Under the pieces are notes generated by a model that was not told where the DNA came from, made no database searches, and worked only from the letters and a program-made list of their open reading frames with translations. From assembly GCF_033441515.1 (NCBI RefSeq), contig NZ_JAWQJT010000002.1:930001-994000 (forward strand): a DNA stretch of 64,000 nt, read 5' to 3'. Positions within the stretch are counted from its first letter, which is position 1, and the number at the start of each line of letters is the position of its first letter. This document shows, piece by piece, positions 7,749 to 25,103 of this stretch. A program made the position numbers and the translations under genes. This DNA comes from Amycolatopsis solani. GTDB taxonomy: Bacteria; Actinomycetota; Actinomycetes; Mycobacteriales; Pseudonocardiaceae.

Positions 7749-7759
7749 AGTCGTCAGGC

Positions 7760-9373: not shown

Positions 9374-9399
9374 CCGCCGCGGATATCGGAGGAGCACGG

Positions 9400-10167: not shown

Positions 10168-10906
10168 GCCGCGCGGTCACGATCCACGTCCGGGCCCCGA
10201 GGAGCACGCCTTCGGAGGTTTCGCGCGCGGCGAATGCGGCCCGGAGGCGGGCCACGGCGTGGTCGTCGCCGCCGGGCAGCAGCTGCTGGACGTCGTGCAG
10301 CCCGAGGGCGAACTCGGTCGCCGTGGCCGCGTCCGGGCCGTAGCAGACCGGTTCGCGCAGCTCGGTGAACTCGACGCCGGTGAAGCCGGCCCCTTCCAGC
10401 AGCGCCCGGGTGCGGCCGGGGTCGCCGAGGGAGAAGTGCGGCCCGGGCGGCGGTGGCTCGGTGCCCGGGGCCAGTGCGTCGCTCAGCACCGAGTACCACT
10501 CGTTGCGGTCGCGCTCCTGCCAGACGAGCAGCACCAGGCGGCCGCCGGGCCGCAGCGCGCGGGCCAGGCCGGCGAACGCCGCGGGCGGGTCGGGGAAGAA
10601 CATCGCGCCGAACCGGGACAGCACGACGTCGAACGCGGCGAGCGGGAACGGGTGCGTCTGGACGTCGGCGACCTCGAACGCCGCTCCGCCGAGCTCGCGG
10701 GCCTTGGCGATGGCCGGTGCCGAGAGGTCGACGCCGAGGGCGTTCGCGCCCGCCTGGGCGGCTTCGCGGGTGGACTCGCCGGTGCCGCAGCCGACGTCGA
10801 GGACGTCTTCGCCGGGCCGCACGGCGGCCACCGCGCGGAACCGCTCGTTCTGCCTGCGGACCTCCTCGTCGAAGATCGCCGCGAACCGGGCCCGATGGTC
10901 ACTCAC
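10154..10906 (-). CDS. Class I SAM-dependent methyltransferase
   Basis: A 250-residue Rossmann-fold methyltransferase. Motif I is [11 protein letters not shown], motif II is GVDLSAPAI, motif IV is [13 protein letters not shown] and post-motif is [12 protein letters not shown]. It resembles the UbiE/Methyltransf_11 group, so small-molecule methylation is likely, but the substrate is unknown. The gene is divergent from the PIG-L gene across 26-35 nt and overlaps the end of ppm1 by 14 nt on the other strand. Confidence 0.88.
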
Positions 10907-10941
10907 GTCGTCTTCTCCCGTTCTCGGCCATCATGGGGCCG

Positions 10942-11736: not shown

Positions 11737-12418
11737 TGACGCCGGCGACGTCGGCGAAGGGCAGGACGGTGAACCGGGAGGCCGCGCCGAGCTTTTCGGC
11801 GCTGGCCAGCACGTAGGTGTCGGCCGCGCGCCGGGCCAGCGTGCGCTTCATCGCGGCTTCCTCGGCGTCGCCGGTGGTGAGCCCGGCCTCGGGGTGCACG
11901 CCGGTGACGCCGAGCAGGAAGACGTCGGCGCTGATCGCCTGGGCGGCCTCGGCCGCGGCGGCGCCGCAGGTGACGGCGGAGTGCCGGAACAACCGCCCGC
12001 CGAGCAGGAAGACCTCGACCCCGCGGTGCTCGAGCAGCGCGACGGCGACGGTGGGGCTGTGGGTGACGACGGTGGCTTCGAGGTCGCGGGGGAGAGCCTT
12101 CGCGACGGCCAGCGTGGTCGTGCCGCCGTCGAGGATGACCGTCGAGCCGGGCCGGACCAGCCCGGCGGCGACCGCGGCGACCCGGTCCTTGCCGTCGGTG
12201 GCGATGGCGGTGCGGCCGGCGTAGTCGGCGACGGCGGGGGAGACAGGCAGCGCTCCGCCGTAGACGCGCTGACACAACCCGGCCGTGGCCAGGTCGCGCA
12301 GGTCACGGCGAATGCTGTCCTCGGAGACCCCGAGCTCGGCGGCGACGTCTTTCGCCAGCACCTTGCCCTCGGCCGCCAGCCGGGCGAGCAGCAGTTCACG
12401 GCGTTCCCCGACCAGCAT
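11669..12418 (-). CDS. DeoR-family transcriptional regulator
   Basis: A 249-residue regulator. The N-terminal DeoR helix-turn-helix (KDVAAELGVSEDSIRRDL) is followed by the ribose-phosphate-isomerase-like sensor domain with VILDGGTTT and SPTVAVAL, which binds sugar phosphates in this family. The ATG at 12418 has an ideal AAGGAGG site; the open frame upstream is not coding. It is divergent from the NUDIX gene over 48 nt, so it may control that gene as well as itself. Confidence 0.92.
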   Translation of the reverse strand: MLVGERRELLLARLAAEGKVLAKDVAAELGVSEDSIRRDLRDLATAGLCQRVYGGALPVSPAVADYAGRTAIATDGKDRVAAVAAGLVRPGSTVILDGGTTTLAVAKALPRDLEATVVTHSPTVAVALLEHRGVEVFLLGGRLFRHSAVTCGAAAAEAAQAISADVFLLGVTGVHPEAGLTTGDAEEAAMKRTLARRAADTYVLASAEKLGAASRFTVLPFADVAGVITDSADRHAQELADLGVPILRA

Positions 12419-12430
12419 GCACGATCCTCC

Positions 12431-12460
12431 TTGTTTATTCCGAGTCGTGCACATTATGGT
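12431..12460 (+). promoter_or_regulatory. Leaderless promoter of the NUDIX gene
   Basis: TTGTTT at 12431-12436, an 18-nt spacer and TATGGT at 12455-12460. The box ends exactly 6 nt before the ATG at 12467, and there is no ribosome site, so transcription probably starts at the start codon. Confidence 0.5.
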
Positions 12461-12466
12461 CGCGGC

Positions 12467-13096
12467 ATGACCTCGCCCACAAGCCTGTCCCGCAACCCGC
12501 GCGTCCGGGTCACCGACGTCGAGCTGCTTTCGTCGGCCTGGTACGTCCTGCGCCGCACGACCTTCGACTTCCAGCACCGCGACGGCCGCTGGACGACCGA
12601 GCGGCGCGAGACGTACGACCGCGGCAACGGCGCCACGGTGCTGCTCTACGACCCGGCGGGCGGGACGGTGCTGCTGACCCGCCAGTTCCGGTACCCGGTC
12701 TACGTCAACGACCACCCGGACGGCATGTTCCTGGAGACGGCCGCGGGCCTGCTGGACACCGACGACCCGGAGACGGCGATCCGCCGGGAAGCGCAGGAGG
12801 AGACGGGCGTCCGCATCGGCGCGCTGGAGCACGTGTTCGACGTCTACACGAGCCCGGGCTCGGTCACCGAGCGCCTGCACTGCTACGCGGCCCCGTACGA
12901 CCCGGCGGACCGCGGTGCGGGTGGCGGGCTCGCCGAGGAGGGGGAGGACATCGAGGTGGTCGAGCTGCGGTTCGAGGACGCGCTGAAGATGATCGGCACG
13001 GGGGAGATCGCCGACGCGAAGACGATCATGCTCCTGCAGTGGGCCGCGCTGCAGGGTCCGTTCCGCGCCCCGGGCGCGCGAAACGGGGGTGGGTAG
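12467..13096 (+). CDS. NUDIX hydrolase, NudK/GDP-mannose pyrophosphatase-like
   Basis: A 209-residue NUDIX protein. The Nudix box runs from GLLDTDDPETAIRREAQEE to TG, near residues 90-112, with the catalytic REAQEETG core. The N-terminal VLRRTTFDFQHRDG and TVLLTRQFRYPV stretches match the ADP-sugar/GDP-mannose pyrophosphatase subgroup. The expected reaction is hydrolysis of a nucleotide sugar to NMP and sugar phosphate. A leaderless start is likely (TATGGT 6 nt upstream). It faces the DeoR regulator, and a strong bidirectional hairpin follows. Confidence 0.9.
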   Translation: MTSPTSLSRNPRVRVTDVELLSSAWYVLRRTTFDFQHRDGRWTTERRETYDRGNGATVLLYDPAGGTVLLTRQFRYPVYVNDHPDGMFLETAAGLLDTDDPETAIRREAQEETGVRIGALEHVFDVYTSPGSVTERLHCYAAPYDPADRGAGGGLAEEGEDIEVVELRFEDALKMIGTGEIADAKTIMLLQWAALQGPFRAPGARNGGG

Positions 13097-13098
13097 GC

Positions 13099-13135
13099 GA
13101 AAGGCCCCCGCGGGGGGAGGTCGCGGGGGCCTTTC
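13099..13135. terminator. Bidirectional terminator between NUDIX gene and rbpA
   Basis: A perfect 14-bp stem (13099-13112 with 13122-13135) with a 9-nt loop, flanked by AAA on one side and TTT on the other inside the stem. It lies between two convergent stops and can serve both genes. Confidence 0.85.
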
Positions 13136-13171
13136 CGTTGTGGTGGGAGCGGTGCTACGGGCCGAACACGG

Positions 13172-13519
13172 CTACGCGGACCGGGAGGTCCGGCGGCCCT
13201 TCAGCTCGGCGAGACGTTCGTTGAGCAGGTCCTCGAGCTCGGGGATCGTGCGCCGTTCCAGCAGCATGTCCCAGTGGGTGCGCGGCGGCTTGACCTTCTT
13301 CTGCTCGGGCTGCCCGCCGTCGACGATCTCCGATTCGCTGCCGTGCAGGCGGCACTCCCAGACCGTCGGGATCTCGGCGTCGTCGGAGAACGGCACCTCG
13401 AACTCGTGGTTCTTCGGGCAGGCGTAACGCACGGTGCGGCGTGGAGCGAGGTCGTGGTTGCGGTCGGTCTCGTAGCTGACCGCTCCCAGCCGGCTTCCAC
13501 GAAGAACACGGTCGGCCAT
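13172..13519 (-). CDS. rbpA: RNA polymerase-binding protein RbpA
   Basis: A 115-residue protein that binds RNA polymerase and the group 1/2 sigma factor and stabilises the open complex in Actinobacteria. The N-terminal tail, the zinc-binding core region with YACPKNHEFEVPF and WECRLHG, the basic linker (KKVKPPRTHWDMLLERR) and the sigma-interaction helix (IPELEDLLNERLAEL) are all present in normal order and length. The ATG is preceded by GAAAGGA. A promoter matching the sigma-R consensus lies 57-82 nt upstream, which fits the known control of rbpA by SigR in Streptomyces coelicolor. Confidence 0.97.
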   Translation of the reverse strand: MADRVLRGSRLGAVSYETDRNHDLAPRRTVRYACPKNHEFEVPFSDDAEIPTVWECRLHGSESEIVDGGQPEQKKVKPPRTHWDMLLERRTIPELEDLLNERLAELKGRRTSRSA

Positions 13520-13575
13520 AGTGGGGTCCTTTCAGTCAGCTCCGGGGTGGAGCCAGGGTGATGCTCACCCTATGC

Positions 13576-13601
13576 AACGACTCGGGGCCCCCGGGGATTC
13601 C
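13576..13601 (-). promoter_or_regulatory. Sigma-R-type promoter of rbpA
   Basis: On the minus strand GGAAT (13601-13597), then exactly 18 nt, then GTT (13578-13576). This equals the SigR (thiol-oxidative stress) consensus GGAAT-N18-GTT known from Streptomyces, where rbpA is a documented SigR target. The predicted leader is about 50 nt. Confidence 0.8.
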
Positions 13602-13745
13602 CGGGACACCATGTCGTTGCTCACGATGAGCTGCGTCACCCGCCGGCATCAGCTTCCTCTAGTAGGAGGCGTTTCGCGCTCCGGCGTGACGTCAATACGG
13701 CCTTCTTAGTGCTGATATCCCCCGGATGGGCTACTGGGGTGTGAC

Positions 13746-14510
13746 TCAGGTCAACCGTAACTGACCGTGATGAGCAGTAACCGGCCCCAAGTCACCCGAT
13801 CGAAAGTGGCGGCGGCACAATACCTGATAACGCACCGTAGCGAATTCGGCCTCAAATCGTGCTGAAGCTGAAGTTTCAACTACGGATTGTTCGGTATCTG
13901 CCACCACGACCGTATCGCCTTCGCGCACGACCTCGCCGTCCACCACCCTCGCGTTGAACCGCCCGGGCAGCCCGCACCAGCACAGCACCTCCACCTGAAC
14001 CGGCTGCAGCTCGTCCGCCAGTTCGAACAGACGAGCGGCTCCCGGGAACAACCGGCTCCGGAAGTCCGTCGCGATCCCGAAGCAGTACACGTCGATCTCG
14101 ACCTCGTCGGCCAGCTCCGCCAGCTGGTCGACCTGCGCGGGGGAGAGGAACTGCGCCTCGTCCACCACCACGTAGTCCACGTGCTGCCCGCGCGCCCACT
14201 CCTGCCGCACCAGGTCCCGCACGTCGGTCTCCTCCACGACCTCCACCGCCTGCCGCGTCAGCCCGATCCGGCTGGAGATCTGCGGCGCGCCCGACCGGTC
14301 GTGGCGCACCAGGATCAGGCCACGCCGGCCCTGCCGGGCGTGGTTGTGGTCGATCTGCAGCGCGAGCGTCGACTTCCCGCAGTCCATCGGCCCGTAGCAG
14401 AACTTCAGCCTGCCCACCGGCGGCGTACCGCGGCGCGAACCCGCCGCGGGGACCGACGACAGGGCGTCCGTGGGGTCGGGGCCGGCGGCCCGGTCGTTCA
14501 CAAAGGTCAC
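13746..14510 (-). CDS. Thymidine kinase-like (TK1-type) ATP-binding protein
   Basis: About 254 residues. Walker A is GPMDCGKST, the Walker B-like motif is VVVDEAQFL, and the zinc site of type II thymidine kinases appears as CWCGLPG with the later CRRHF. The middle carries GIATDFRSRLFPGA, which aligns with the thymidine-binding lasso region. The expected reaction is phosphorylation of thymidine by ATP. It has a long, poorly conserved N-terminal extension of about 35 residues; the start is a GTG at 14510. It lies 21 nt downstream of the Atg22-like transporter gene on the same strand, so a nucleoside-uptake link is possible but unproven. Confidence 0.82.
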   Translation of the reverse strand: MTFVNDRAAGPDPTDALSSVPAAGSRRGTPPVGRLKFCYGPMDCGKSTLALQIDHNHARQGRRGLILVRHDRSGAPQISSRIGLTRQAVEVVEETDVRDLVRQEWARGQHVDYVVVDEAQFLSPAQVDQLAELADEVEIDVYCFGIATDFRSRLFPGAARLFELADELQPVQVEVLCWCGLPGRFNARVVDGEVVREGDTVVVADTEQSVVETSASARFEAEFATVRYQVLCRRHFRSGDLGPVTAHHGQLRLT

Positions 14511-14531
14511 GACAGCCGACCCTATCGGGGA

Positions 14532-15932
14532 CTACAGCACCTCCGGCGGGGTGTTGCCCGCCGCCACGATCGCCCGCCGCACCGGCACCAGCGAAACCAG
14601 CACCAAACCCGCCACGAAGAAGATCACCAGCGCCACGATGGCCAGCCGGAACGACCCCGTCGCCTGCCCGACGCCGGCGAACACCAGCGGCCCCAGCCAC
14701 GACGTCCCACGCTCGCCCACGACGTAGAGCGAGTAGTACTGCGCGTCCTTGCCCGCCGGGATCATCTGGCTGAACAACGACCGCGACAACGCGTTCGTCC
14801 CGCCCAGCACCAGCCCGATCCCGACCGCCACCGCGAGGAACTGCACCAGCTGCTTCGGCTGCACGAAGTACGCCCCGGCCAGCACCGCGACCCAGATCAC
14901 CAGGCTGCCCAGGATCGTCCGCTTCGCCCCGATCCGCCGCGCCACCAGCCCGTGCAGCGTCCCGCCCAGGTACGCCACGAACTGGATCACCAGGATCGTG
15001 ACGATCAGCACGCTGTTGCCGAACCCCAGCTCGTCCTTGCCGTACTGCGCCGACACCGTGACCACCGTGTTGATGCCGTCGGTGAAGACCAGGTAGCTGC
15101 CCAGGAACGCCAGCGTCAACGGGTACGCCTTCGCCGACACCAGCGTCTGCCGCAGCTCCGCGAACCCCGCCCGCAGCACCGACTTGCCGGACACGACGTC
15201 GACCGGCTCGTGCCGCCGGGGGAGCGCCCGCACCGCCGGGATGGTGAACGCCGCCCACCACAACCCCGAGGTCAGGAAGCAGATCTGCACCGCCATGCCC
15301 TCGCTCACCCCGAACGAGTCGTGCCCGAGGTAGAACCCCAGCTGCAACGCCAGCGCCAGCCCGCCACCCAGGTACCCGAACGCCCACCCCTTCGCCGAGA
15401 TGTCGTCCCGCTCGTCCGGACCCCCGATGTCCACCAGGAACGAGTAGTAGACGACCAGCGAACCCCCGTACCCGATGTTCGCGACGATGAACAGCACCAC
15501 ACCCAGCTGCCAGTCCGACCCCGCGAAGAAGAACATCGCCGCCGCGGCCGCCGCACCCAGGAACGCGAACCCACCCAGGATCCGCCGCTTGTTGTGACTG
15601 CGATCGGCCACCGCACCCGCGATCGGCAGCACCAGCACCTGCACCACCGTCGCCACCGACAGCAGGTAGCCCCACACCGAACCCGCAGGGAAGTGCAACC
15701 CGAACAACGACACGTCGCAGTGGTGCAACGTGTCCGCCTTGCCCGCCGCGTCGACACACGGCCTGTCCCCGTTAAGGGTGAAGTTCGTCTTCGCGTCCGC
15801 CGCCGCGATCCCGCTCATCGACAGCGCGCCGAACACCGTCGTCGACGACGAATAGAACGGCGAATTCGCCCAGTCGTAGAAATACCAGCCCCAGCGCTCG
15901 CGCTTGGTCGAGCGCGTCCCGGCCAGCGTCAT
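14532..15932 (-). CDS. MFS transporter, UMF1/Atg22-like
   Basis: A 466-residue membrane protein with about 12 predicted helices. The start (RERWGWYFYDWANSPFY) is the signature of the Atg22-like/UMF1 branch of the major facilitator superfamily, which exports amino acids in yeast vacuoles; substrates of bacterial members are unknown. An AAGGAG site lies 6 nt ahead of the ATG. The large loop after helix 1, with two cysteines, faces outside. It is probably cotranscribed with the thymidine-kinase-like gene 21 nt downstream. Confidence 0.9.
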   Translation of the reverse strand: MTLAGTRSTKRERWGWYFYDWANSPFYSSSTTVFGALSMSGIAAADAKTNFTLNGDRPCVDAAGKADTLHHCDVSLFGLHFPAGSVWGYLLSVATVVQVLVLPIAGAVADRSHNKRRILGGFAFLGAAAAAAMFFFAGSDWQLGVVLFIVANIGYGGSLVVYYSFLVDIGGPDERDDISAKGWAFGYLGGGLALALQLGFYLGHDSFGVSEGMAVQICFLTSGLWWAAFTIPAVRALPRRHEPVDVVSGKSVLRAGFAELRQTLVSAKAYPLTLAFLGSYLVFTDGINTVVTVSAQYGKDELGFGNSVLIVTILVIQFVAYLGGTLHGLVARRIGAKRTILGSLVIWVAVLAGAYFVQPKQLVQFLAVAVGIGLVLGGTNALSRSLFSQMIPAGKDAQYYSLYVVGERGTSWLGPLVFAGVGQATGSFRLAIVALVIFFVAGLVLVSLVPVRRAIVAAGNTPPEVL

Positions 15933-16145
15933 CCACGGCTCCTTCGAATCAAGAACTTCCAGGTCAGCGCGGAGACTACTGGGAGGTAGCGACGCGGCTC
16001 ACAGCACCTTCGCAGCGTCGTCCAAATCGTGTCCGGTTTGTCGCTTCACGCGCATCCGCCACTTCCGGGACAACCACGATCCCGTCCCCCCGGCGTGTCG
16101 CGAACAGATGTGAACAGAGTTTCATGTGAGACTCGAGCGCGCAGT

Positions 16146-16181
16146 GTGTCCCTTGTGGTCAATGGGACACGCTCTTACTGT
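16146..16181 (+). promoter_or_regulatory. Leaderless rpf promoter with overlapping inverted repeat
   Basis: TTGTGG at 16153-16158, 17 nt, TACTGT at 16176-16181, then exactly 6 nt to the ATG at 16188. The inverted repeat GTGTCCC-N11-GGGACAC (16146-16170) covers the -35 box and may be an operator. No space remains for a riboswitch leader of the kind known for Streptomyces rpfA. Confidence 0.6.
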
Positions 16182-16187
16182 GCTCCC

Positions 16188-16859
16188 ATGATCCAGATCC
16201 GGAGACGCACCGTCGCGAGAATGCTCCTCCTCGCCTTCGCCGCCATGGGTCTGCAGCTGATCGCCCCCGCCGCCGCCAGTGCCGACCCCGCGCCGACCGC
16301 CTGGGCCAAGCTCCGCATGTGCGAATCCAGCGGCCGCTACGCCACCAACACCGGCAACGGCTACTACGGCGCCTACCAGTTCGACCTGCCCACCTGGCGC
16401 AGCGTCGGCGGCACCGGCCGCCCCGACCAGGCCGCACCCGCCGAACAGGACTACCGCGCCCTCTACCTCTACCGCATGCGCGGCTGGCAACCCTGGCAGT
16501 GCGCCGGCATGCTCAAACTCGCCGGCGACGCCGACGCCCGCAGCAAGCGCATCCCCACCTACGCCGACTCCGCCTACATCGGCGGGGGACCGGCCCCCGC
16601 ACCCACCCCGCCCGCACCCGGCGGCCCCATGCCCGCCTGGCCCGGCGTCGTCTACCAATACGGCGACTGCGCCGCCCCGCTCAAGGCGTTCCAGCTCCGC
16701 ATGAACACCTACGGCTACGGCTTCACCGGCACCGGCTGCTACTACGAAAAGACCCGCACCGCCGTCCTCGACCTCCAACGCGCCAACGGCATCAAGGACA
16801 GCGGCCTCCTCGGCCCCAAAACCTGGACCGCCGCCTGGCAGGGCAAAGCACCCCGCTGA
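16188..16859 (+). CDS. Resuscitation-promoting factor-like transglycosylase with peptidoglycan-binding domain
   Basis: A 223-residue secreted protein. Residues 1-31 form a signal peptide ending ...APAAASA/DP. The Rpf transglycosylase domain follows (about 35-110), with the catalytic glutamate in LRMCESSGRY and the typical NGYYGAYQFDLPTW; a Pro-rich linker (about 130-150) leads to a peptidoglycan-binding-1-like domain that ends with GLLGPKTWTAAWQG. It would cleave the glycan backbone of peptidoglycan during growth or resuscitation. The start is chosen at 16188 because the promoter and signal peptide fit it. Confidence 0.93.
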   Translation: MIQIRRRTVARMLLLAFAAMGLQLIAPAAASADPAPTAWAKLRMCESSGRYATNTGNGYYGAYQFDLPTWRSVGGTGRPDQAAPAEQDYRALYLYRMRGWQPWQCAGMLKLAGDADARSKRIPTYADSAYIGGGPAPAPTPPAPGGPMPAWPGVVYQYGDCAAPLKAFQLRMNTYGYGFTGTGCYYEKTRTAVLDLQRANGIKDSGLLGPKTWTAAWQGKAPR

Positions 16860-16864
16860 CCCCC

Positions 16865-16908
16865 TCGTGAGTGTTTAGGACGGTTCTAACCGTCCTAAAC
16901 ACTCACGA
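16865..16908. terminator. Perfect palindromic terminator shared by rpf and glpQ-like genes
   Basis: A perfect 21-bp stem (16865-16885 with 16888-16908) with a 2-nt loop and outer arms CGTGAGTG/CACTCACG. The stop codon of the convergent phosphodiesterase gene (16903-16905) lies inside the right arm. Related hairpins occur at 36545-36592 and 60781-60826. Confidence 0.9.
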
Positions 16909-17694
16909 CTCCTGCGACCGCTGCCACGTACCCCGCTCGATCAGCACCTCGCGCAGCAGGTCCGGCCGATCCGTCACGATCCCGTGCACCCCCAGGTCCA
17001 GCAGCATCCGCATCTCCGCCGGATCGTCGATCGTCCACGTGTGCACCTCGATCCCGGACCGGCCCGCGATCGACAGGAACGCCTTGTCCACCACCCGCAA
17101 CGCACCCTGCCGCACCGGCACCTGCGCCATCGCACCCAGCACCAGCCGGCCCAGGGGGAGCAGCGGCAGCTTCCCCCGCGCCCACAACGCGAACGCCGAC
17201 CGCGGCCCCATCGCCGTCACCAGCTTCGGCCCCGCCAGCTTCCGCAACCGCACCAGCCGCGCGTCCGAAAACGCCGCCGCCGCCACCCGGTCGTGCGCAC
17301 CCGTCCGCTCCAGCACCCGCACGAACGGCTCCACCGCCTGATCGGCCTTCACATCGACGTTGAACCGCGCACCCGGCAGCTCCTCCAGCACGTCCTCCAA
17401 CCGCGACAACGGCACCTTCCCCCCGACCTTGACCCCCTTCAGCTGCGCCCACGTCTTCGACGCGATCGCCCCGGCCCCATCCGTCGTCCGGTCCAGGTTC
17501 GGATCGTGGTGCACCACCACCACACCGTCCGCCGTCGCGTGCACGTCCGTCTCCAGGTACCGGTACCCCTCCGCACACGCCCGCTGGAACGCCGGCAGCG
17601 AATTCTCCAGCCCGTCCAGCTCGTCGAGGTGCCAACCGCGGTGAGCGAAGGCACGGGGGAGCGGGTCGGCCAGGTACGGGAACGACGGGTGCAT
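16903..17694 (-). CDS. Glycerophosphodiester phosphodiesterase
   Basis: A 263-residue GDPD-family enzyme that hydrolyses glycerophosphodiesters to glycerol 3-phosphate and an alcohol. Motifs: AFAHRGWH (catalytic His), [19 protein letters not shown] (metal-binding Glu/Asp), [14 protein letters not shown] and HTWTID. There is no signal peptide, so it is cytosolic. The ATG is at 17694, with GAGGG just before it; a CACACT box 6 nt upstream could also give a leaderless start. It ends inside the shared palindromic terminator. Confidence 0.93.
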
Positions 17695-17760
17695 CCCTCA
17701 AGTGTGCACTTCCGCCATGACCCCGGCATGACCCGGCGATGGCCAGCTAGGGTCTCCCGG

Positions 17761-18132
17761 GTGAGGGAAGCCGCCGAATTCACCCAGCTCGAACCCGTCC
17801 CGGCCCGCCGCGGCGCCCCCAAGCACTGCGGCTGGTGCGGCCGCCGCCTCCCGGAAGCCGGCAACGTCGGCCGCCGCCGCCGGTACTGCGGCCAATCCTG
17901 CCGCCAGCGCGCCTACGAACGCCGCACCGCACTCCAGCGAAGCGGACTGCCCGAAGACGCCGTCGTGCTCTCCGACACCGAGATCGCCGCCCTCCAGGAC
18001 CGCCTCTTCCAGCTCCGCTGCGCCGCCGAAGACATCGTCACCGCCGCCGACGACGGCGCCGACCCCCGCGAACTACGCGGACTCGCCGACGAAATCGCCC
18101 GCGCCGCCAAAGACCTCGAACAACTCCGCTGA
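17761..18132 (+). CDS. Small zinc-finger protein with helical tail
   Basis: About 123 residues (GTG start; an ATG at 17728 is possible). A compact zinc motif, HCGWCGRRLPEAGN then RRRYCGQSCRQRAYERR, is followed by a charged helical tail of about 70 residues (ALQDRLFQLRCAAEDIV). The four-cysteine arrangement recalls FCS-like/CGNR-type DNA- or RNA-binding fingers. It is tail-to-tail with the tyrosine recombinase, with only 4 nt between the stops. The function is unknown; a DNA-binding accessory role is possible. Confidence 0.75.
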   Translation: MREAAEFTQLEPVPARRGAPKHCGWCGRRLPEAGNVGRRRRYCGQSCRQRAYERRTALQRSGLPEDAVVLSDTEIAALQDRLFQLRCAAEDIVTAADDGADPRELRGLADEIARAAKDLEQLR

Positions 18133-18136
18133 TCCC

Positions 18137-19174
18137 TCACCCCAGCCCGTCCAACGCCCGGTACGTCCGGTTGCTCGCCGCCGCCGCCCGCTGCTCACGA
18201 CCCGTCGCCTCGATGTAGTTCTGACTCGTCGCCAAACTCGCGTGCCCCAGCAACGCCATGATCTCCGACGCCGTCGCCCCGTCCTCCGCCAGCCGCGTCG
18301 CGAACGTGTGCCGCAACGCGTGCAAGTTCGCCCCCGCCGGCACCCGGTCGTGCAACCCTGCACCCCGGTAACACGACTTCACCAGGTACTCCAGCGCACC
18401 CCGCCCGATCGCCTCACCCGCCCGATCCAGCAGCAACGGCGAACCAGGGGAGAACCGCGCGTGCGGGAACCGCACCCGGCACGACTCCCGGTACCGCTCG
18501 ATCAGCTCCGCCAGCACCGGCTGCACCGGGATCGACCGCTCCCGGCTGCCCTTCCCCTTCACGTGCAACCGCAGCTCACCCGCGCGCCCCACCAGCGACC
18601 GCGACGTCAGCGCCCGCATCTCCGCCGCCCGCAATCCCGCCACCAGCCCCAGCGCGATCACCAGCACGTCCCGCTCCGGCCACGGGTCACGCGCGCGCCG
18701 CGAACCCGCAGCCGCCGCCGACAGCAGCTGCTCCGGGGTTTCCTCGCCCCGCAACGGCTTCGGCGTCAACGCCGGCGTCCGCGGCCGCGCCACCGCGCCC
18801 ATCGGGTTGCCCGGCAACAGGCCGTCGGCCACGCAGAAAGTCAGGAACTGGTTCCACGTCGACCACGCCCGCAGCACCGAGCTCTTCGCGTGGTCGTCCG
18901 CGAACGCCCCGAACGCCGTCCGCAGCGCCGGTCCGGTCAGCTCGGCGACCTCCAGGTCCTCGGCAGGGCGGCCCAGCTCCGAAACCAGGAGAGTGGTGAT
19001 CCCGGCGAGGTCCCGCCGGTAGGCGTCGGTGGTGTGCGGCGAGTCCTTGCGCGGCCGGCGGGCGGCGAAGAAGGCTTGCTGTGCCTCGGAAAGCCTCATG
19101 TGGATCTTGTACCGCACACCACCGACAGTTTCGGTGGCCGGGTCCCGACCCGACATTTCATGCATAATTGCCAT
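18137..19174 (-). CDS. Tyrosine recombinase/integrase next to dif
   Basis: Up to 345 residues with a core-binding N-terminal domain and a complete catalytic domain: Arg in LVAGLRAAEM, Lys/beta-hairpin VKGKGSRERSIP, HALRHTF, LGHASL and the nucleophile Tyr in SQNYIEA. It would cut and rejoin DNA at a specific site. The start is uncertain: three in-frame ATGs (19174, 19165, 19156) lie inside a perfect palindrome with Xer-site geometry, and another is at 19099. It is longer than XerC/XerD (about 300). The dif site is about 440 nt upstream of the start. It may be a dif-exploiting mobile-element integrase or a dedicated terminus recombinase. Confidence 0.9.
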   Translation of the reverse strand: MAIMHEMSGRDPATETVGGVRYKIHMRLSEAQQAFFAARRPRKDSPHTTDAYRRDLAGITTLLVSELGRPAEDLEVAELTGPALRTAFGAFADDHAKSSVLRAWSTWNQFLTFCVADGLLPGNPMGAVARPRTPALTPKPLRGEETPEQLLSAAAAGSRRARDPWPERDVLVIALGLVAGLRAAEMRALTSRSLVGRAGELRLHVKGKGSRERSIPVQPVLAELIERYRESCRVRFPHARFSPGSPLLLDRAGEAIGRGALEYLVKSCYRGAGLHDRVPAGANLHALRHTFATRLAEDGATASEIMALLGHASLATSQNYIEATGREQRAAAASNRTYRALDGLG

Positions 19175-19190
19175 TATGCATGAAATGTCG
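19151..19190. repeat. 40-bp perfect palindrome with Xer-site geometry over the recombinase start
   Basis: Arms 19151-19168 and 19173-19190 are perfectly complementary over 18 bp with a 4-nt centre. Read as a tyrosine-recombinase site, it has 11-bp arms TTCATGCATAA and TTATGCATGAA around a 6-nt centre, with inner ATAA...TTATG as in dif. It may be the recombinase's own site, an operator, or both. Confidence 0.75.
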
Positions 19191-19646
19191 GTTTAGCCCG
19201 GAACGACCTCCCGGGGGATCCGGAACTCTCTCGGAGACGATTTCGGGCTCCGAATCGCCACTGGACGCCCCGCGGCGGGGATGTGCACGTATGTTCGAGC
19301 ACGTGAGCCACTGGGTCTGGCCTGCGGCGATCCGCGGCGATGTCGAAACGTCGTCGGCTGTCGTCTCGAGACTCGGATTACCTACCGGAGTTTCGTCACC
19401 GTGACGTTTTGAGGTCGAGTGGCTGGACGTCGACTCCGCAGCTCCAGGGGATGCTCCTACGGCCCCCGGAAGCGCCTTTAGGGGCAACTAGGGCTTGACG
19501 CTAGAGAAGGGTGGGCGACAAACCTCAGGAGAAGCCGTCCTGACGAACTTCGTACGCGACCGCGGGACCCGCGCCTGGGCACCCCTCCCGGCTTCCCGTC
19601 GCAGCGTGTCCCCGAGTGCCGATAATGTACATTATGTCAAGTAACG
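19191..19646. other. Non-coding spacer carrying dif
   Basis: These 456 nt hold no credible gene on either strand: the open frames have no ribosome site and low-complexity translations. The spacer separates the recombinase palindrome from the AHSA1 gene and contains the dif site near its right end. I see no other structured element. Confidence 0.6.
19615..19642 (+). other. dif: Chromosome dimer resolution site dif
   Basis: The 28-mer has the XerC arm AGTGCCGATAA, the centre TGTACA and the XerD arm TTATGTCAAGT. Against the actinobacterial consensus as I recall it (TTSRCCGATAAT-VN-ACATTATGTCAAGT) all but the first three positions agree. The site is where XerC/XerD resolve chromosome dimers near the replication terminus. 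It ends 4 nt before the stop of the AHSA1 gene. Confidence 0.88.
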
Positions 19647-20093
19647 TCAGTGCCAGTCGCTGATCGTCACGTCCCGCGGCGCCGGGGCGCCCTCCCCGGT
19701 CTCCACGAGCTGCTTGAGGCTCATCAGGTAGATCGCCCACTTCGTGCTGCAGTGGTGCATGAACTCGCCCGCCTCGCGCCAGCCTTCGTGCTTGAACAGG
19801 ACGATCGTGTAGTCGCTGCGCTGTGCGAGCTCCCAGCGGATCGTCGTGCCGATCCACTCCGGCGGTCCGTCGACGACTTCCCAGCGGACGAGCCGGCCCG
19901 GCTCGAGTTCGACGACCTTCATGTCGAAGCCGCCCGGGATGAAGCGGAAGGCGATGACGCCGCCGGGTTCGGTGTCCCCCACGGTCTTTTCGGTCCACCA
20001 GGCGGAGAGGCCGTCGAGGGTGGTGAGGGCTTCGTACACGGTTTCCGGTGTGGCCTTTTCGATGCCGATGCGGTGCAGGATGTCCATTTTCAC
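19647..20093 (-). CDS. AHSA1/SRPBCC-domain protein
   Basis: A 148-residue SRPBCC-fold protein (ILHRIGIEKATPETVYEAL at the start, WWTEKTVGD, FHHxx-like FMHHCSTKWAIYLMSLKQLVETGEG at the end), the layout of AHSA1/START-like proteins that bind hydrophobic ligands. The GTG start overlaps the stop of the ArsR gene in a GTGA, so translation is coupled; an ATG two codons later is possible. It is the last gene of an AHSA1-ArsR-AHSA1 operon. The ligand is unknown. Confidence 0.88.
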   Translation of the reverse strand: MKMDILHRIGIEKATPETVYEALTTLDGLSAWWTEKTVGDTEPGGVIAFRFIPGGFDMKVVELEPGRLVRWEVVDGPPEWIGTTIRWELAQRSDYTIVLFKHEGWREAGEFMHHCSTKWAIYLMSLKQLVETGEGAPAPRDVTISDWH

Positions 20094-20422
20094 CGGTTCC
20101 TTTCGATGGTTTCGGCGATGTGCTTGATGCGGCGGAGCCGGGCGTCCCAGGCGGTGCCGACGTCGGTGAGCTGGGCGACGGCGCGGGCGAGCTGGGTTTC
20201 GTCGACGCGGAACTGCTTTTCGCGCCCTTCGGCCTGCGCGTGGACGAGGCCGACGCGGTCGAGGATGGCGAGGTGCTTGGCGACGGCTTGGCGGGTCACC
20301 GGGAGGTGTTCGCTGAGGCTGGTGGCGGTCCCCCGGCCTTCGGCGAGCAGCAGGTCGAGCATGCGGCGGCGGGTGGGGTCGCCGACGGCCGACCAGAGGT
20401 CGTCGTCCACGGCGGTGGTCAC
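20090..20422 (-). CDS. ArsR-family regulator (AHSA1-linked)
   Basis: A 110-residue winged-helix protein: LWSAVGDPTRRRMLDLLLAEG, then the recognition helix in LPVTRQAVAKHLAILDRVGL and wing EGREKQFRV. It lacks the metal-binding CxC motif of ArsR/SmtB sensors, so it belongs to the metal-independent group usually found with SRPBCC proteins. The GTG start overlaps the upstream AHSA1 stop by 4 nt (GTGA). Two GCAAC-N5-GTTGC repeats at the operon promoter are its likely operators. Confidence 0.9.
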   Translation of the reverse strand: MTTAVDDDLWSAVGDPTRRRMLDLLLAEGRGTATSLSEHLPVTRQAVAKHLAILDRVGLVHAQAEGREKQFRVDETQLARAVAQLTDVGTAWDARLRRIKHIAETIERNR

Positions 20423-20865
20423 GAGGTGGCTCCCACCTTGGCGGTGACGGCGGGGATGCGGGGCAGGAAGTGGTCCCAGCCGCTTTCGTGGTCGGCGTAT
20501 TCGGCGGCGATCTTGGCTTCGTCCCAGCCGCGTTCGCGGAAGCCGGTTTCGGTCATGCGCAGGCGGGTGCCGGTGCCGGCTGGTTCGAGTTCGAAGACGA
20601 CGAGGAAGGAGTTCCCGGGTCCGGCGGTCTCCCCTGCCGCGTGGGTCCAGCGGAAGGAGAAGAGCTTCGGCGGGACGGCGTCGACGACGGTGAAGCGGAC
20701 TTGGCTGTCGCCGAAGGTGATGTGTCCTTCTCCCCCGGGTTCGGCGGGGTAGTCGGCTTCGTCGGGCCACCATTCGCGGACGTGTTCGGGGTTGCTGACG
20801 ACGTCGAAGACGGTGTCGGGGGTGGCGTCGATGTGGATTTCGCGTTCGAGGGTTCCGTGGTCCAT
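20419..20865 (-). CDS. AHSA1/SRPBCC-domain protein, first gene of the operon
   Basis: A 148-residue SRPBCC-fold protein (LEREIHIDATPDTVFDVVSNPEHVREWWPDEADY; later FELEPAGTGTRLRMTETGF). It resembles the downstream AHSA1 protein in fold but not closely in sequence, so the operon carries two different ligand-binding proteins. AAGGAG lies 6 nt ahead of the ATG. The promoter with two operators is directly upstream. Confidence 0.9.
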   Translation of the reverse strand: MDHGTLEREIHIDATPDTVFDVVSNPEHVREWWPDEADYPAEPGGEGHITFGDSQVRFTVVDAVPPKLFSFRWTHAAGETAGPGNSFLVVFELEPAGTGTRLRMTETGFRERGWDEAKIAAEYADHESGWDHFLPRIPAVTAKVGATS

Positions 20866-20878
20866 GGCTGCTCCTTGT

Positions 20879-20938
20879 GCAACGTTTGGTTGCTTGTCAC
20901 GTTAGCTTTCGATGAGCTGATGTGCAACCGTAAGTTGC
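20879..20938 (-). promoter_or_regulatory. Promoter of the AHSA1-ArsR operon with two GCAAC-N5-GTTGC operators
   Basis: The minus strand has TTGCAC (-35), 17 nt and TAACGT (-10). Identical-geometry inverted repeats GCAAC-N5-GTTGC lie at 20924-20938 (over the -35) and 20879-20893 (just past the likely start of transcription), with centres 45 bp apart. This is a good layout for repression by the ArsR protein. Confidence 0.75.
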
Positions 20939-21121
20939 GCAGGGATCCCGAAGACGGGCGCTCCCCTGCTGTTACCTGACCGAGTGATCCGGGGTGCCGT
21001 GGCTTGCGGGGGCTGTTGACTTTGGAGGTTCAGGCCTGGCCGGTCCGGTAGACGGTGCTGACGTACAGCGTGGTGTCGTTCGTCTACAACACGGCGAGCC
21101 TGGGGATCGCGGTCGGAGTGC

Positions 21122-22087
21122 TCACCGGGAAGTGAGGTCGACGCCGGTGAGTTCGGCCGAGAGGGTCCACAGGCGGGCGGCTTCGGCGGGGTCGATCGCG
21201 TAGTCGCGGACGCCGGCGCGGAGCCCGACGTCGGTGGCGCCGTCGCCGTCGGGTGCGCGTTCGGCGATGTCGCAGTCTTCGAGGTAGACGCCGCCGAGGC
21301 CGTCGAGCTGGGGTGAGGTGGCGGCCCAGACCTGGGTGGCGGCACCGGCTTCGGGGGTTTTGAAGTAGCCGCTGGGGACGCCGTTTTCGTCGACCCAGCC
21401 TTGGGCGACGCGTTCTTCCTGCGGGATGTGGCGGGCGAGGTGGGTCAGGATGGAACCGGGGTGCAGGGCGAAGGCGCGTACGCCGCGGTCGCGGCCGAGC
21501 CGGTCGAGGTTTACGGCGAACAGGACGTTGGCGGTCTTGGCCTGACCGTAGGCGAGCCACTTGTCGTAGCCGGTTGCGAAGTGGGGGTCGGCCCAGCGGA
21601 TGGGTGAGAGGTGGTGGCCGCGGGAGGAGACGGAGACGACGCGGGCGCCGTCGGCGATGGCCGGCCAGAGCCGGTTGACGAGGGCGAAGTGGCCGAGGTG
21701 GTTGGTCGCGAACTGGGCTTCCCAGCCGGGGCCGACGCGGGTTTCGGGGCAGGCCATGACGCCGGCGCTGTCGATGACGAGGTCGAGGCGGCGGCCGGTG
21801 GCGAGGAAGCGGTCGGTGAAGGCGTGGACGCTGTCGAGGTCGCCGAGGTCGAGTTCGCCGACTTCGGCGCTCCCGCCGAGGGCGGTTTCGGCGGCCGCGG
21901 GGCGCCGGGCGGGAACGAGCACGCGAGCGCCGGCGGCGGTGAGGGCGCGCGTGGTTTCGAGGCCGATGCCGGAGTAGCCGCCGGTGACGAGGGCGAGTTT
22001 GCCGGTGAGGTCGATGCCGTGGAGGACTTCGGCGGCGGTGCTGGTGGCGCCGAAGCCGGAGCCGATTTTGTGCTGCGGGGTGGTCAT
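21122..22087 (-). CDS. Short-chain dehydrogenase/reductase
   Basis: A 321-residue SDR. The NAD(P)-binding motif is LVTGGYSGIGLE, the catalytic residues are Ser in VSVSSRG and Tyr/Lys in WLAYGQAKTANVL, and NHLGHFALV is the Asn-helix motif. Length and the NLDRLG/HPGSI region resemble retinol-dehydrogenase-like SDRs. The ATG at 22087 is preferred to the upstream one at 22168, because the promoter and a long inverted repeat lie between. It is divergent from a TetR gene. Confidence 0.9.
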   Translation of the reverse strand: MTTPQHKIGSGFGATSTAAEVLHGIDLTGKLALVTGGYSGIGLETTRALTAAGARVLVPARRPAAAETALGGSAEVGELDLGDLDSVHAFTDRFLATGRRLDLVIDSAGVMACPETRVGPGWEAQFATNHLGHFALVNRLWPAIADGARVVSVSSRGHHLSPIRWADPHFATGYDKWLAYGQAKTANVLFAVNLDRLGRDRGVRAFALHPGSILTHLARHIPQEERVAQGWVDENGVPSGYFKTPEAGAATQVWAATSPQLDGLGGVYLEDCDIAERAPDGDGATDVGLRAGVRDYAIDPAEAARLWTLSAELTGVDLTSR

Positions 22088-22094
22088 GGTTTCG

Positions 22095-22125
22095 ACGGTA
22101 GGAGCTGGAGTGCGCTCCAGTGCAA
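22095..22125 (-). promoter_or_regulatory. SDR promoter with 19-bp spacer and internal CTGGAG-TGCG-CTCCAG repeat
   Basis: The minus strand has TTGCAC (22125-22120), 19 nt and TACCGT (22100-22095). The inverted repeat CTGGAG-N4-CTCCAG (22105-22120) fills the spacer. A 19-bp spacer with a central dyad is the hallmark of MerR-activated promoters, but no merR gene is adjacent. Confidence 0.55.
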
Positions 22126-22144
22126 GTCTCGGTCGAGCGTTGAC

Positions 22145-22167
22145 TGAAGCAATGAATCGGTGCTTCA
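22145..22167. promoter_or_regulatory. Probable TetR operator TGAAGCA-N9-TGCTTCA
   Basis: A perfect 7-bp inverted repeat with a 9-nt spacer ends 10 nt before the TetR start codon. It is well placed for autorepression. Confidence 0.5.
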
Positions 22168-22176
22168 CTTCTTGAC

Positions 22177-22782
22177 GTGCCCTACCGCCGCACCGCGAAG
22201 GTGCAGGAACGCCTGGACGCCCAGCGCGAGACGATCGTCGCCGCGGCGACCGAACAGCTGGCCGAGCACGGGTACAGCGGCTGCTCCGTCGCCGCGGTCG
22301 CCGAGCGGGCCGGGGTCGCCGTTGGCAGCGTCTATCGGCACTTCCCCACCAAGGCCGATCTCGTCGTGCACGTGTTCCGGCAGGTCGTGACGCGGGAGGT
22401 CGACGCCGTGCGGGCCGCGTCCGCGCGGCCGGGTGCGCCCGCCGAGCGGGTCCTGGCCGTGTTCGAGACCTTCGCCCAGCGTGCGCTGAAGGCGCCTCGG
22501 CAGGCCTACGCGCTGCTCGCCGAGCCGGTCGACGCGCTGATCGACGCCGAGCGGCTCGAGTTCAGGCGCGCGTTCACCGAGGTGGTCGCCGAGCACGTCG
22601 CCGCCGGGGTGAAGGAGGGCGCGCTGCCGCCGCAGGACGGCCGGCTGACCGCCGCCGCGTTGGTCGGGGCCGCCGCCGAAGTCTTGATCGGCCCGTTGAC
22701 CAGCGGTAACGCCGGTGACGTCGCCGAGCTCCGCACGTTCGTCGTCCGCGCTCTAGGAGGTTCCGATGCCCGCCACGCATGA
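22177..22782 (+). CDS. TetR-family regulator
   Basis: A 201-residue regulator with an N-terminal TetR helix-turn-helix (TEQLAEHGYSGCSVAAVAERAGVAVGSVYRHF, where the last part is the recognition helix) and a helical ligand domain. The GTG start follows a TGAAGCA inverted repeat. Its 3' end overlaps the start of the AidB-like dehydrogenase gene by 17 nt, so the two are cotranscribed and it probably regulates that gene and perhaps the divergent SDR. Confidence 0.9.
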   Translation: MPYRRTAKVQERLDAQRETIVAAATEQLAEHGYSGCSVAAVAERAGVAVGSVYRHFPTKADLVVHVFRQVVTREVDAVRAASARPGAPAERVLAVFETFAQRALKAPRQAYALLAEPVDALIDAERLEFRRAFTEVVAEHVAAGVKEGALPPQDGRLTAAALVGAAAEVLIGPLTSGNAGDVAELRTFVVRALGGSDARHA

Positions 22783-24388
22783 GGTCACCAACCAGGTCCC
22801 GCCACTGGCCGGCCACGACGTCGGCGCCGACCCGGCGCTGCTCGAAGGGCTCGAGCGGGCGGGCGCGGGCTGGGCCGCGGGCGAGGTGCACGAGCTGGGC
22901 CGGCTGGCCGGCAGCGAGCGGGTCCAGGAGTGGGGCCGGCTGGTGAACGAGAACGAGCCGGTGCTGCGCACGCACGACCGCTACGGCAACCGGATCGACG
23001 AGGTCGAGTTCCACCCGCACTGGCACGAGCTGATGAACGTCGCGGTGTCGCACGGGCTGCACGGCACGCCGTGGCGTGACGGCCGCGAAGGCGCGCACGC
23101 GGCGCGGGCGGCGAAGTTCTACGTGTGGGGTCAGGCCGAGTTCGGGCACAGCTGCCCGATTTCGATGACCTACGCGGCGATCCCGGCGCTGCGGGCCAAC
23201 CCGGAGCTCGCCGCGCGGTACGAGCCGCTGCTGGCCTCGACCGAGTACGACTTCGGGCTGCGCGAGCCGAGCACCAAGCGCGGCCTGATCGCGGGCATGT
23301 CGATGACCGAGAAGCAGGGCGGCTCCGACGTCCGCGCCAACACGACCACGGCGACCCCGGGCGCGGACGGCAGCTACACCCTGGTCGGGCACAAGTGGTT
23401 CACCTCCGCGCCGATGTCGGACATGTTCCTGACCCTGGCGCAGGCCCCCGGCGGGCTGTCGTGCTTCCTGCTCCCCCGCGTGCTGCCCGACGGCTCGCGC
23501 AACCCTATCCGGCTGCAGCGGCTGAAGGACAAGCTGGGCAACCGGTCGAACGCGTCGTCGGAGATCGAATACGACAACGCCGTCGGCTGGCTGGTCGGCG
23601 AAGAGGGCCGCGGGGTCCGCACGATCATCGAGATGGTCAACAACACCCGGCTGGACTGCACGCTGGGCAGCGCGTCCGGGATGCGGCTGGGCACGGTCCG
23701 CGCGGTGCACCACGCCACCCACCGGTACGCCTTCGGCAAGGCCCTGGTCGACCAGCCGCTGATGGCGAACGTGCTGGCCGACCTCGCGGTCGAGTCCGAG
23801 GCCGCGACGACGGTGGCGATGCGGCTGGCCGCGGCGGGCGACCGGCCGGGCGACCCGCAGGAGCAGGCGTTCCGGCGGCTGGGGCTGGCGGTGTCGAAGT
23901 ACTGGGTGTGCAAGCGGGCGCCGGTGCACGCGGCCGAGGCCCTCGAATGCTTCGGCGGCAACGGGTACGTCGAGGAGTCGGGCATGCCGCGGCTCTACCG
24001 CGAGGCTCCGCTGTCGTCCATCTGGGAGGGTTCGGGCAACGTGGCGGCGCTGGACGCGTTGCGCGCCATGGGCAAGCAGCCCGAGTCGGTGGCGGCGTTC
24101 TTCACCGAGGTCGAGCAGGCCGCCGGCGGTGACGCGCGGCTGGACGACGCCGTCGACCGGCTCCGCAAGGAGCTGACCGGCCTCGACGCGATCGAGTACC
24201 GGGCGCGGCGGGTGGTCGAGTCGATGGCGCTGGTCCTGCAGGGCTCGCTGCTGGTGCGCCACGGCCACCCGGCGGTCGCGGACGCGTTCTGCGCCTCCCG
24301 ATTCGGCGGCGACTGGGGCATCGCGTTCGGCACGCTCCCGGCCGGCGTCGACACGGGAGCGATCATCGAGCGCGCCGCCGTGCGCTAA
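22766..24388 (+). CDS. AidB-like acyl-CoA dehydrogenase family protein
   Basis: A 540-residue flavoprotein of the acyl-CoA dehydrogenase superfamily. Motifs: GMSMTEKQGGSDVRANTT and GHKWFTSAPMSD of the FAD/substrate region, LGNRSNASSEI, and the C-terminal LECFGGNGYVEESGMPRLYREAPLSSIWEGSGNV split as ECFGGNGYVEE and SIWEGSGN. The length and C-terminal extension match the AidB group (alkylation response) rather than ordinary dehydrogenases (about 380). AGGAGG precedes the ATG. The operon with TetR suggests induction by a small molecule. Confidence 0.9.
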   Translation: MPATHEVTNQVPPLAGHDVGADPALLEGLERAGAGWAAGEVHELGRLAGSERVQEWGRLVNENEPVLRTHDRYGNRIDEVEFHPHWHELMNVAVSHGLHGTPWRDGREGAHAARAAKFYVWGQAEFGHSCPISMTYAAIPALRANPELAARYEPLLASTEYDFGLREPSTKRGLIAGMSMTEKQGGSDVRANTTTATPGADGSYTLVGHKWFTSAPMSDMFLTLAQAPGGLSCFLLPRVLPDGSRNPIRLQRLKDKLGNRSNASSEIEYDNAVGWLVGEEGRGVRTIIEMVNNTRLDCTLGSASGMRLGTVRAVHHATHRYAFGKALVDQPLMANVLADLAVESEAATTVAMRLAAAGDRPGDPQEQAFRRLGLAVSKYWVCKRAPVHAAEALECFGGNGYVEESGMPRLYREAPLSSIWEGSGNVAALDALRAMGKQPESVAAFFTEVEQAAGGDARLDDAVDRLRKELTGLDAIEYRARRVVESMALVLQGSLLVRHGHPAVADAFCASRFGGDWGIAFGTLPAGVDTGAIIERAAVR

Positions 24389-24876
24389 CCGCGTGCGGCC
24401 CGCTGCCGGGCGAGCTCCTCGACCGCGCTGGGGAGGGTCTCCTCGAAGTCGATGAGCTTCGCCCAGGTCGGGGTGACGACGATGCGGACCATGCCGTCGT
24501 AGAGCGAACGCACCTCGCGCTCCCACTCGACGCGCTGCTCGGGCGTCATCTCGTAGCTGCCGTTCATCTGGAGGTACTCCTCGGGGATGCCGTCGACGAC
24601 GTCGAGTTCGGCGCGGCCGCGCAGCAGCAGGATCTTCGGCGGGTGGGCTTCGACGTCGATGGTGAGGGCGACGGCCGGGTTGGCCCGCAGGGACCGCAGC
24701 TTGGGCATGTTCTTCGCGGTGCACATGACGAGCTCCGAGCCGTTCCAGGTGAACGCCATCGGGACCGAGCGCGGGGTGCCGTCCTGGGCGACGTAGGCCA
24801 GCCGGGCGATGTCGCGCGCCAGCAGCTCCTTGGCGTACGGCCGGTTCAGTACCTCGGTGATCTCGTGCTGCTCCAT
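24385..24876 (-). CDS. Pyridoxamine 5'-phosphate oxidase-like flavin/F420-binding protein
   Basis: A 163-residue split-beta-barrel protein: RDIARLAYVAQDGTPRSVPMAF, VMCTAKNMPKLRSLRANPAVALTI and ILLRGRAEL. This pattern is typical of PPOX-family proteins that bind FMN or F420 and reduce small molecules. A CCGGAGGACACC ribosome site supports the ATG at 24876. It overlaps the AidB-like gene by 4 nt tail-to-tail. Substrate unknown. Confidence 0.88.
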   Translation of the reverse strand: MEQHEITEVLNRPYAKELLARDIARLAYVAQDGTPRSVPMAFTWNGSELVMCTAKNMPKLRSLRANPAVALTIDVEAHPPKILLLRGRAELDVVDGIPEEYLQMNGSYEMTPEQRVEWEREVRSLYDGMVRIVVTPTWAKLIDFEETLPSAVEELARQRAARG

Positions 24877-24984
24877 GGTGTCCTCCGGGTCCGGGACGGC
24901 CCTTGGTGGCCGTTGCTGACCCGGGGACGGAGCCGGCGGCGGGTTTTCGACATCAACCGCCGAGTGCGTCGAGGCAGGGACTGG

Positions 24985-25020
24985 GCGGGCGCGCGGGGAG
25001 TGCCGCACCCGCGCGCCCGC
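24985..25020. terminator. GC-only hairpin downstream of the SWIM gene
   Basis: A perfect 13-bp stem (24985-24997 with 25008-25020) closes a 10-nt loop, 84 nt past the SWIM stop. It is the probable end of the ABC-SNF2-SWIM operon. The rest of the 24877-25103 gap holds only the ribosome site of the PPOX-like gene. Confidence 0.6.
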
Positions 25021-25103
25021 ACCCCCAGTGGCCCGGCGGAACGCCGCCGCTGCGGGACAGGAGGCAATGGCCTGCGTGCTGGATACCGCGGATTCCGCGT
25101 TTT

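Follow-up and report, generated by a model that had tools for sequence, protein, structure and literature searches.

Why should a bacterial chromosome carry, a few hundred bases from dif, another site that resembles it? The question is raised by a 64,000-nucleotide stretch of Amycolatopsis solani DNA, the window of this analysis, in which a preliminary description had noticed a tyrosine recombinase gene beginning inside a palindrome close to dif. It was proposed there that the palindrome is a recombination site doubling as an operator, and that it could belong to an IMEX-like element exploiting dif or to a dedicated terminus system. The comparisons discussed below favor the last of these, and in many actinomycetes dif seems to have, a few hundred bases away, a further recombination site served by a dedicated enzyme.

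The features of the locus are collected in Table 1. The inverted repeat is real, although the 40-bp perfect palindrome first reported is in fact a repeat of 42 bp (19150-19191), where perfect 19-bp arms flank the tetranucleotide TGCC, which is not palindromic and breaks the full perfection. Inside it, at 19157-19184, is the Xer-type layout that had been recognized, i.e., 11-bp arms around a 6-nt centre; at up to three mismatches this layout has a single match across the window and none in 100 dinucleotide shuffles. The inner ATAA...TTAT occurs in both the palindrome and dif, as had also been noted. Long perfect inverted repeats are frequent in the window, three of them (at 16865, 36545, and 51865) exceeding this one in arm length. 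What is distinctive about the repeat at 19150-19191 is the combination of an AT-rich Xer-like sequence with its location and conservation. A pattern search across the whole genome of 10.3 Mb returned this one copy, and no second copy that would mark an excised or integrated segment. In the draft genome G002, contigs C75 and C82 (L114 and L115) both start ∼110 bp from the site, one on either side, so that the assembly breaks at the palindrome.

The neighboring dif is exact over its 28 nucleotides (core, 19621-19642), and its distance from the site is 430 nt, slightly less than the 440 nt given at first. Past dif, on the reverse strand (19647-20865), there are two 148-aa open reading frames without an NCBIfam match, which presumably resemble SRPBCC-type proteins, and between them a third with what we take to be an ArsR-like look. 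The dif of the window is close to the one quoted for Frankia alni by Kono et al. 2011 (PMC3025954). For Kutzneria albida, a member of the Pseudonocardiaceae with a circular genome, a dif opposite oriC is reported (PMC4210621).

Table 1. Features of the locus, in window coordinates (a dot marks features given without strand)
Feature	Position	Strand	Description
Putative third Xer-type tyrosine recombinase	18137..19117	-	Likely start GTG 19117 or ATG 19099; longest ORF extends to 19174
Predicted second terminus site	19157..19184	.	11-bp arm TTCATGCATAA, centre TTGCCA, 11-bp arm TTATGCATGAA; within 19150-19191
Interval between site and dif	19185..19614	.	430 bp; conserved less than site or dif; almost no GGGGGAG in relatives
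Canonical actinobacterial dif	19615..19642	+	XerC arm AGTGCCGATAA, centre TGTACA, XerD arm TTATGTCAAGT
GGGGGAG motifs	1..64000	.	Below 19170, 11 forward and 0 reverse; above, 0 forward and 9 reverse

What kind of enzyme is encoded next to the site? The protein matches the integrase catalytic domain (PF00589, 71.5 bits), and R163, K189, H266, R269, H292, and Y301, which we take to be the catalytic residues, are invariant in 20/20 aligned family members. The R-K-H-R-H-Y integrase domain by which Xer-type tyrosine recombinases are recognized is thus present. The scores against the NCBIfam equivalog models are far below the respective cut-offs: 142 bits for XerC (cut-off 335), 115 for XerD (330), 46.8 for XerS (267), and 78.3 for XerA (220); a PDB search gave a weak match to XerH. 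In a midpoint-rooted tree of 61 proteins, where long branches meet and the XerC and XerD sequences come from carrier and related genomes, 32 family members form a clade of their own (100/100), separate from 11 XerC and 18 XerD proteins. Judged by sequence, the enzyme is a member of a third Xer-type family, neither XerC nor XerD. The same genome also encodes XerC- and XerD-level proteins (254 and 343 bits, respectively, with the XerD model). In the database records examined, the proteins of this family are named either “tyrosine-type recombinase” or XerD.

Does the site accompany the gene? Two sets of 80 genomes were searched. With the pattern SATGSATAAT-N4-ATTATSCATS and up to three mismatches, the site was matched in 72/72 gene-bearing and 0/8 gene-less genomes; in the second set, searched with TGSATAA-N6-TTATSCA and at most one mismatch, the counts were 61/61 and 2/19, each of the two gene-less genomes having a single match with one mismatch. 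One genome (G049) is in both sets, so that distinct genomes number 132 with the gene and 27 without it. The reversed pattern, used as a control, matched 3/80 genomes in the first set and 10/80 in the second. The preliminary description had asked for conservation of the palindrome wherever the same recombinase occurs, and a match is found in all 132 distinct gene-bearing genomes, the one in G591 seemingly by chance, with no site found near its gene. The match in G454 at one mismatch also looks like chance, and a better site, with two mismatches, lies 286 bp from its dif. In G042 the matches are near the recombinase genes and on a 199-kb contig, away from dif. Most genomes of the first set have one site each.

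Another question is where the site is placed. A survey reaching 1.6 kb from dif gave 184 distinct loci, which share ancestry and are not independent. The distance between site and dif ranges there from 259 to 1403 bp, with a median of 490; the site is on the side of the XerC arm in 166 loci and on that of the XerD arm in the other 18. Two genomes fall outside this range, with 3.3 and 4.2 kb between site and dif. Eleven genomes from six genera retain the site at dif with the gene at a distance of 0.12-1.57 Mb. Five Kutzneria-type loci keep the two sites 268-271 bp apart, whereas the distance from site to protein core varies from 239 to 839 bp; in two further Kutzneria loci the sites are 293 and 486 bp apart. 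On the scale of the chromosome, the site is at a median of 0.49 of its length from dnaA among the 49 genomes with a dnaA position (the site coordinate of G110 being approximate), at 0.40 or more in 48 of them and at 0.31 in G030. The order of gene, palindrome, and dif, whose conservation the earlier account had suggested checking, is kept in nearly all the Amycolatopsis loci read. By these distances, it is dif, rather than the gene, that the site tracks.

How widespread is the gene? A strong match was obtained in 33 of 36 genomes of the genus, the window's own counted. The family sample gave 167 carriers among 297 genomes, with one match each, in 23 of 46 genera; the other 130 genomes and 23 genera of that sample had no match, so the gene is dispensable. 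Carriers number 124/397 in the order sample and 33/394 in the class sample. They include Amycolatopsis, Kutzneria, Lentzea, Saccharothrix, Actinoalloteichus, Umezawaea, Goodfellowiella, and Kribbella, and further Micromonospora, Nocardiopsis, Planomonospora, Streptosporangium, and Sphaerisporangium. The arrangement of gene, site, and dif recurs in Pseudonocardiaceae, Micromonosporaceae, a Nocardiopsis/Streptosporangium family, and Kribbella, where the gene of six loci is 77-80% identical and dif, in a slightly different form, is 259-1196 bp from the site. A Kribbella-like gene, site, and dif also occur on L292, a contig bearing the title Streptomyces sp. SID13031, whose genome is possibly mislabelled. 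Weaker homologues, with 36-43% identity, are found in a sampled family (f8) that the data suggest to be Mycobacteriaceae.

One may ask whether the locus is a mobile element, with an attachment site beside dif and a gene that entered as the resolution module of an integrated plasmid. Homologues are present in 53 plasmid records of Mycobacterium, Rhodococcus, and Mycolicibacterium, all below 60% identity, and in three of the four plasmids read a symmetric site of similar kind precedes the annotated start of the homologue by 30-92 bp, the plasmid sites being located away from any dif; the high identity in Kribbella, which belongs to another order, suggests transfer. A search of viral contigs for close relatives found none. 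In one genome, G432, a pair of sites close to dif encloses QatA/QatC/QatD-like defence genes (contig C2, L238, ∼3000-9270; 936 and 7182 bp from dif), and this segment is possibly an IMEX-like insertion; the recombinase match of this genome is on a 191-kb contig. However, the two G432 sites differ in their 6-nt centre, which is unexpected for fresh att sites, and an IMEX is recognized by two flanking sites and the use of the host dif/Xer, whereas the genome of the window has one copy of the site. Also against this origin, each carrier of the family sample has a single gene match and most genomes have a single site, the recombinase tree groups largely by family, and the site is retained where no gene is linked to it. 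The IMEX-like nature first suggested may hold for G432; as an explanation of the locus in general, an element of this type or of plasmid descent is unlikely.

The surroundings of the two sites add another aspect, the orientation of short G-rich motifs. All 20 GGGGGAG of the window point inward, and their orientation switches within a stretch that extends from 1516 bp below position 19170 to 1559 bp above it and includes the site as well as dif. Across loci, 256/257 copies to the left of dif and 382/397 to the right of the site are inward; the 15 on the right that aim away include 7 within 100 bp of the site. Between dif and site, nine copies were counted in 90.7 kb, all at ∼60 bp or less from the site and all aimed at dif, so that dif is favored as the convergence point. 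Over 180-400 kb, the inward copies are 110/131 in G775, 108/128 in G847, 81/104 in G832, and 54/60 in G871. Within 400 kb of both G847 and G775, no octamer is more strongly polarised about the site than CGGGGGAG, the site having been taken as the midpoint in G847. Other variants of the motif switch elsewhere, i.e., in G775 at +53 kb for GCGGGGGA and at +10 to +13 kb for GGGGGA, and in G847 at +84 to +92 kb for GTGGGGGA; GC skew around the site is noisy. AIMS are described as strand-biased octamers that become commoner and more biased towards the terminus, with KOPS among them (PMC5993296). GGGGGAG may be the KOPS of these actinomycetes.

As for the site itself, its conservation is uneven. In 20-nt blocks of 25 Amycolatopsis loci, the mean column identity is 1.00 for dif and 0.93 for the site; the intergenic blocks between them have 0.32-0.86, and the coding blocks past the site 0.90-0.95. 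In the survey of 184 loci, the near-invariance of the inner letters of the arms follows from the fixed patterns used, and the outer positions of the left arm, the only independent ones, are T in 155, T in 179, and A in 161. The 6-nt centre varies, with 63 distinct hexamers, and it is often exactly inverted between relatives: in the first 45 rows, 21 pairs, not independent of each other, have at least two centre changes, and 15 of these are exact reverse complements, while 6 are not. Either strand exchange or a hairpin-mediated inversion, as is known from plastids, may have produced this, and the two explain the data equally well. Telomere resolvase sites have a self-complementary centre, and a protelomerase acting on hairpin telomeres was considered and dropped; none of the 63 hexamers is self-complementary, a weak result given that about one was expected.

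Might the site be no more than a structural mark of the terminus, where a protein holds the sister termini or blocks motors without strand exchange? It would suit such a role that site and dif bracket the zone of motif convergence, and that the site is linked to dif more strongly than to the gene. The catalytic residues, however, are invariant in all 20 members aligned, and a variable centre between conserved arms fits a site of strand exchange; the exact inversion of centres between relatives also speaks against it, though hairpin-mediated inversion would do the same. Taken together, a purely structural role is quite unlikely.

A further point is where the gene begins. The preliminary description placed the start inside the palindrome, and three ATGs of the longest open reading frame (19174, 19165, and 19156) are indeed there. 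Yet an in-frame stop separates the site from the conserved protein core in 66 of the 156 distinct loci with a site at most 3 kb upstream, the other 90 being open. All 20 homologues read start at the position of GTG 19117/ATG 19099, or within ∼13 residues of it, which is ∼40-60 bp below the site. In favor of the first proposal are the 19 closest loci (identity of at least 93%), of which 15 are open and 4 have a stop, and a database prediction (P0001, 342 aa, 99% identical to the window protein) that is long enough for a start inside the palindrome. A start at this place is doubtful here and, from the sequences compared, not a conserved feature, although some species may use one.

These data bear on the idea that the palindrome is an operator through which the enzyme, or a regulator, controls the gene and its dosage, the link with dif being secondary. 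For most of the Amycolatopsis loci read, and for the Micromonospora-type loci, the site is a short way upstream of the gene, the plasmid homologues have it upstream in three of four cases, and the CATAAT in each arm arguably resembles a -10 box. Nevertheless, the site stays at dif in the 11 genomes where over 100 kb separate it from the gene, the five Kutzneria-type loci hold it at a nearly constant distance from dif and not from the gene, and in most loci of family f31 its distance to the gene is between several hundred bp and several kb. Regulation of its own dose as the main function was rejected, since the site goes with dif rather than with the gene, and has very little probability left. 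As regards the related suggestion of inversion or excision at the gene start, the genome of the window has one copy of the site, though the centre is found inverted between relatives. As for an ordinary terminator-like hairpin or a chance palindrome, the window does contain other long hairpins, but the site is AT-rich, unmatched in shuffled sequence, and conserved in arms and place in several families, so that such an origin is extremely improbable.

What is left to understand is the relation with XerCD/dif. A dif was matched in 72/72 recombinase carriers, and both XerC- and XerD-level proteins are present in 9 of 16 carriers examined, the window's genome included and 7 of the 16 having been picked because dif was not found; hence, the second system looks redundant. 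Seven Planomonospora/Streptosporangium-type genomes are instructive. At up to three mismatches, six have no canonical dif and one has only a 3-mismatch match; a single search of these drafts with the XerD model gave no XerC-level match (next score at most 158 bits vs 254-275 elsewhere), while XerD is present in all (268-303 bits), and the gene and the second site are kept. All seven loci (L216-L220, L222, and L195) have a symmetric site with the consensus ACCAGACAGAA-N6-TTCTGTCTGGT, which is separated from the second site by 425-695 bp. Of the 11 positions of its arm, 8 are shared with the XerD arm of dif, 4 with the XerC arm, and 6 with the arm of the second site. In the three genomes tested, both sites are within the GGGGGAG switch interval. 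From these sequences, dif seems to have turned into a XerD-only site in this clade. The notion that the new system had replaced dif was dropped, and the presence of the XerD-type site in every locus means that two paired sites persist in spite of the apparent loss of XerC.

Two side observations belong here. G775 has a second copy of the symmetric XerD-type site, with one mismatch, 73.5 kb from the second site, and it could mark an inserted element. G080 (11.8 Mb in one contig) and G090 (a draft) have no dif at up to three mismatches, no recombinase, and no XerC/XerD-level match (best score 144 bits in G080, none in G090); the chromosome of G080 is possibly linear.

All considered, the palindrome is probably the target of the recombinase and a second dif-like site of the terminus, so that a second system, with a single recombinase, would stand beside XerCD/dif, likely for the resolution of dimers or multimers. 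With the order conserved in Amycolatopsis, the dedicated terminus system of the preliminary description, with the palindrome as recombination site of the enzyme, is its likely outcome. The site, the enzyme family, their co-occurrence, the low copy number, the terminus position, the pairing with dif, and the motif convergence are read from the sequences; from them we infer binding, cleavage, use as a homodimer, dimer resolution, a link with FtsK, and timing.

How might the system work? A homodimer of the third recombinase would occupy the two 11-bp arms, which are nearly identical, bring two sister sites into synapsis, and exchange the strands where the 6-nt centre adjoins the arms. Site and dif bracket the zone of motif convergence, so that a translocase arriving from one side would meet dif first, and one from the other side the second site. 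The task would be to resolve chromosome dimers or multimers, perhaps when FtsK-gated XerCD is insufficient, as in multigenomic hyphae or during sporulation. Two independent crossovers would restore the dimer, and consequently the systems should be separated by time, by developmental stage, or by the side of the motor. It is conceivable, if somewhat short of an even chance, that large groups of actinomycetes with circular chromosomes run two Xer systems that are ordered or mutually exclusive, each motor meeting a different complex first, which would be a new layer of terminus control.

If this is true, many actinomycetes have a second terminus system that is easily overlooked owing to the names of its proteins, and a sharp question follows: why do the two systems not cancel each other? 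There are antibiotic producers among these organisms, and the recombinase and its site may serve as an orthogonal lox-like tool to engineer such hosts.

How does this arrangement compare with the systems already described? To our knowledge, bacteria resolve chromosome dimers with either XerCD or one single recombinase, and no described case of the two side by side was found in the open-licence literature. The second site has in common with XerCD/dif the 11-bp arms, the 6-nt centre, the inner ATAA...TTAT, the terminus position, and the motif convergence; it differs in that the arms are symmetric and apparently served by one recombinase, from a separate clade. Symmetric arms, an asymmetric centre, one enzyme, and a site near the gene are also the features of Cre/loxP and of plasmid resolution modules, but here the pair is chromosomal and tied to dif.

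Single-recombinase dif/Xer systems are recognized by a terminus site, built of 11-bp arms around a 6-nt centre, that co-occurs with one recombinase, and the present locus has these features. The examples described are in genomes without canonical XerCD/dif (PMC5357621, PMC9765430), while the genome of the window has XerC- and XerD-level proteins and dif; the present case is thus a variant of them. As in XerS/difSL and XerH/difH, there is a single recombinase and a site often beside its gene and near the terminus, and those systems stand in for XerCD, unlike the one discussed here; the arms of difH are described as imperfect inverted repeats (PMC5357621, PMC2731167). By analogy with XerS/difSL, XerH/difH, and XerL/dif, a single recombinase on both arms would recombine sister sites. 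XerL/dif of the Legionellales likewise has a single recombinase and its own AT-rich, partly palindromic terminus site, and no canonical dif/Xer was found in those bacteria, where XerL itself is the system (PMC9765430). The likeness extends to a gene that is sometimes on a plasmid, and XerL, too, was missed by homology searches (PMC9765430). Unlike XerL/dif as described there, the predicted second system of these actinomycetes adjoins XerCD/dif.
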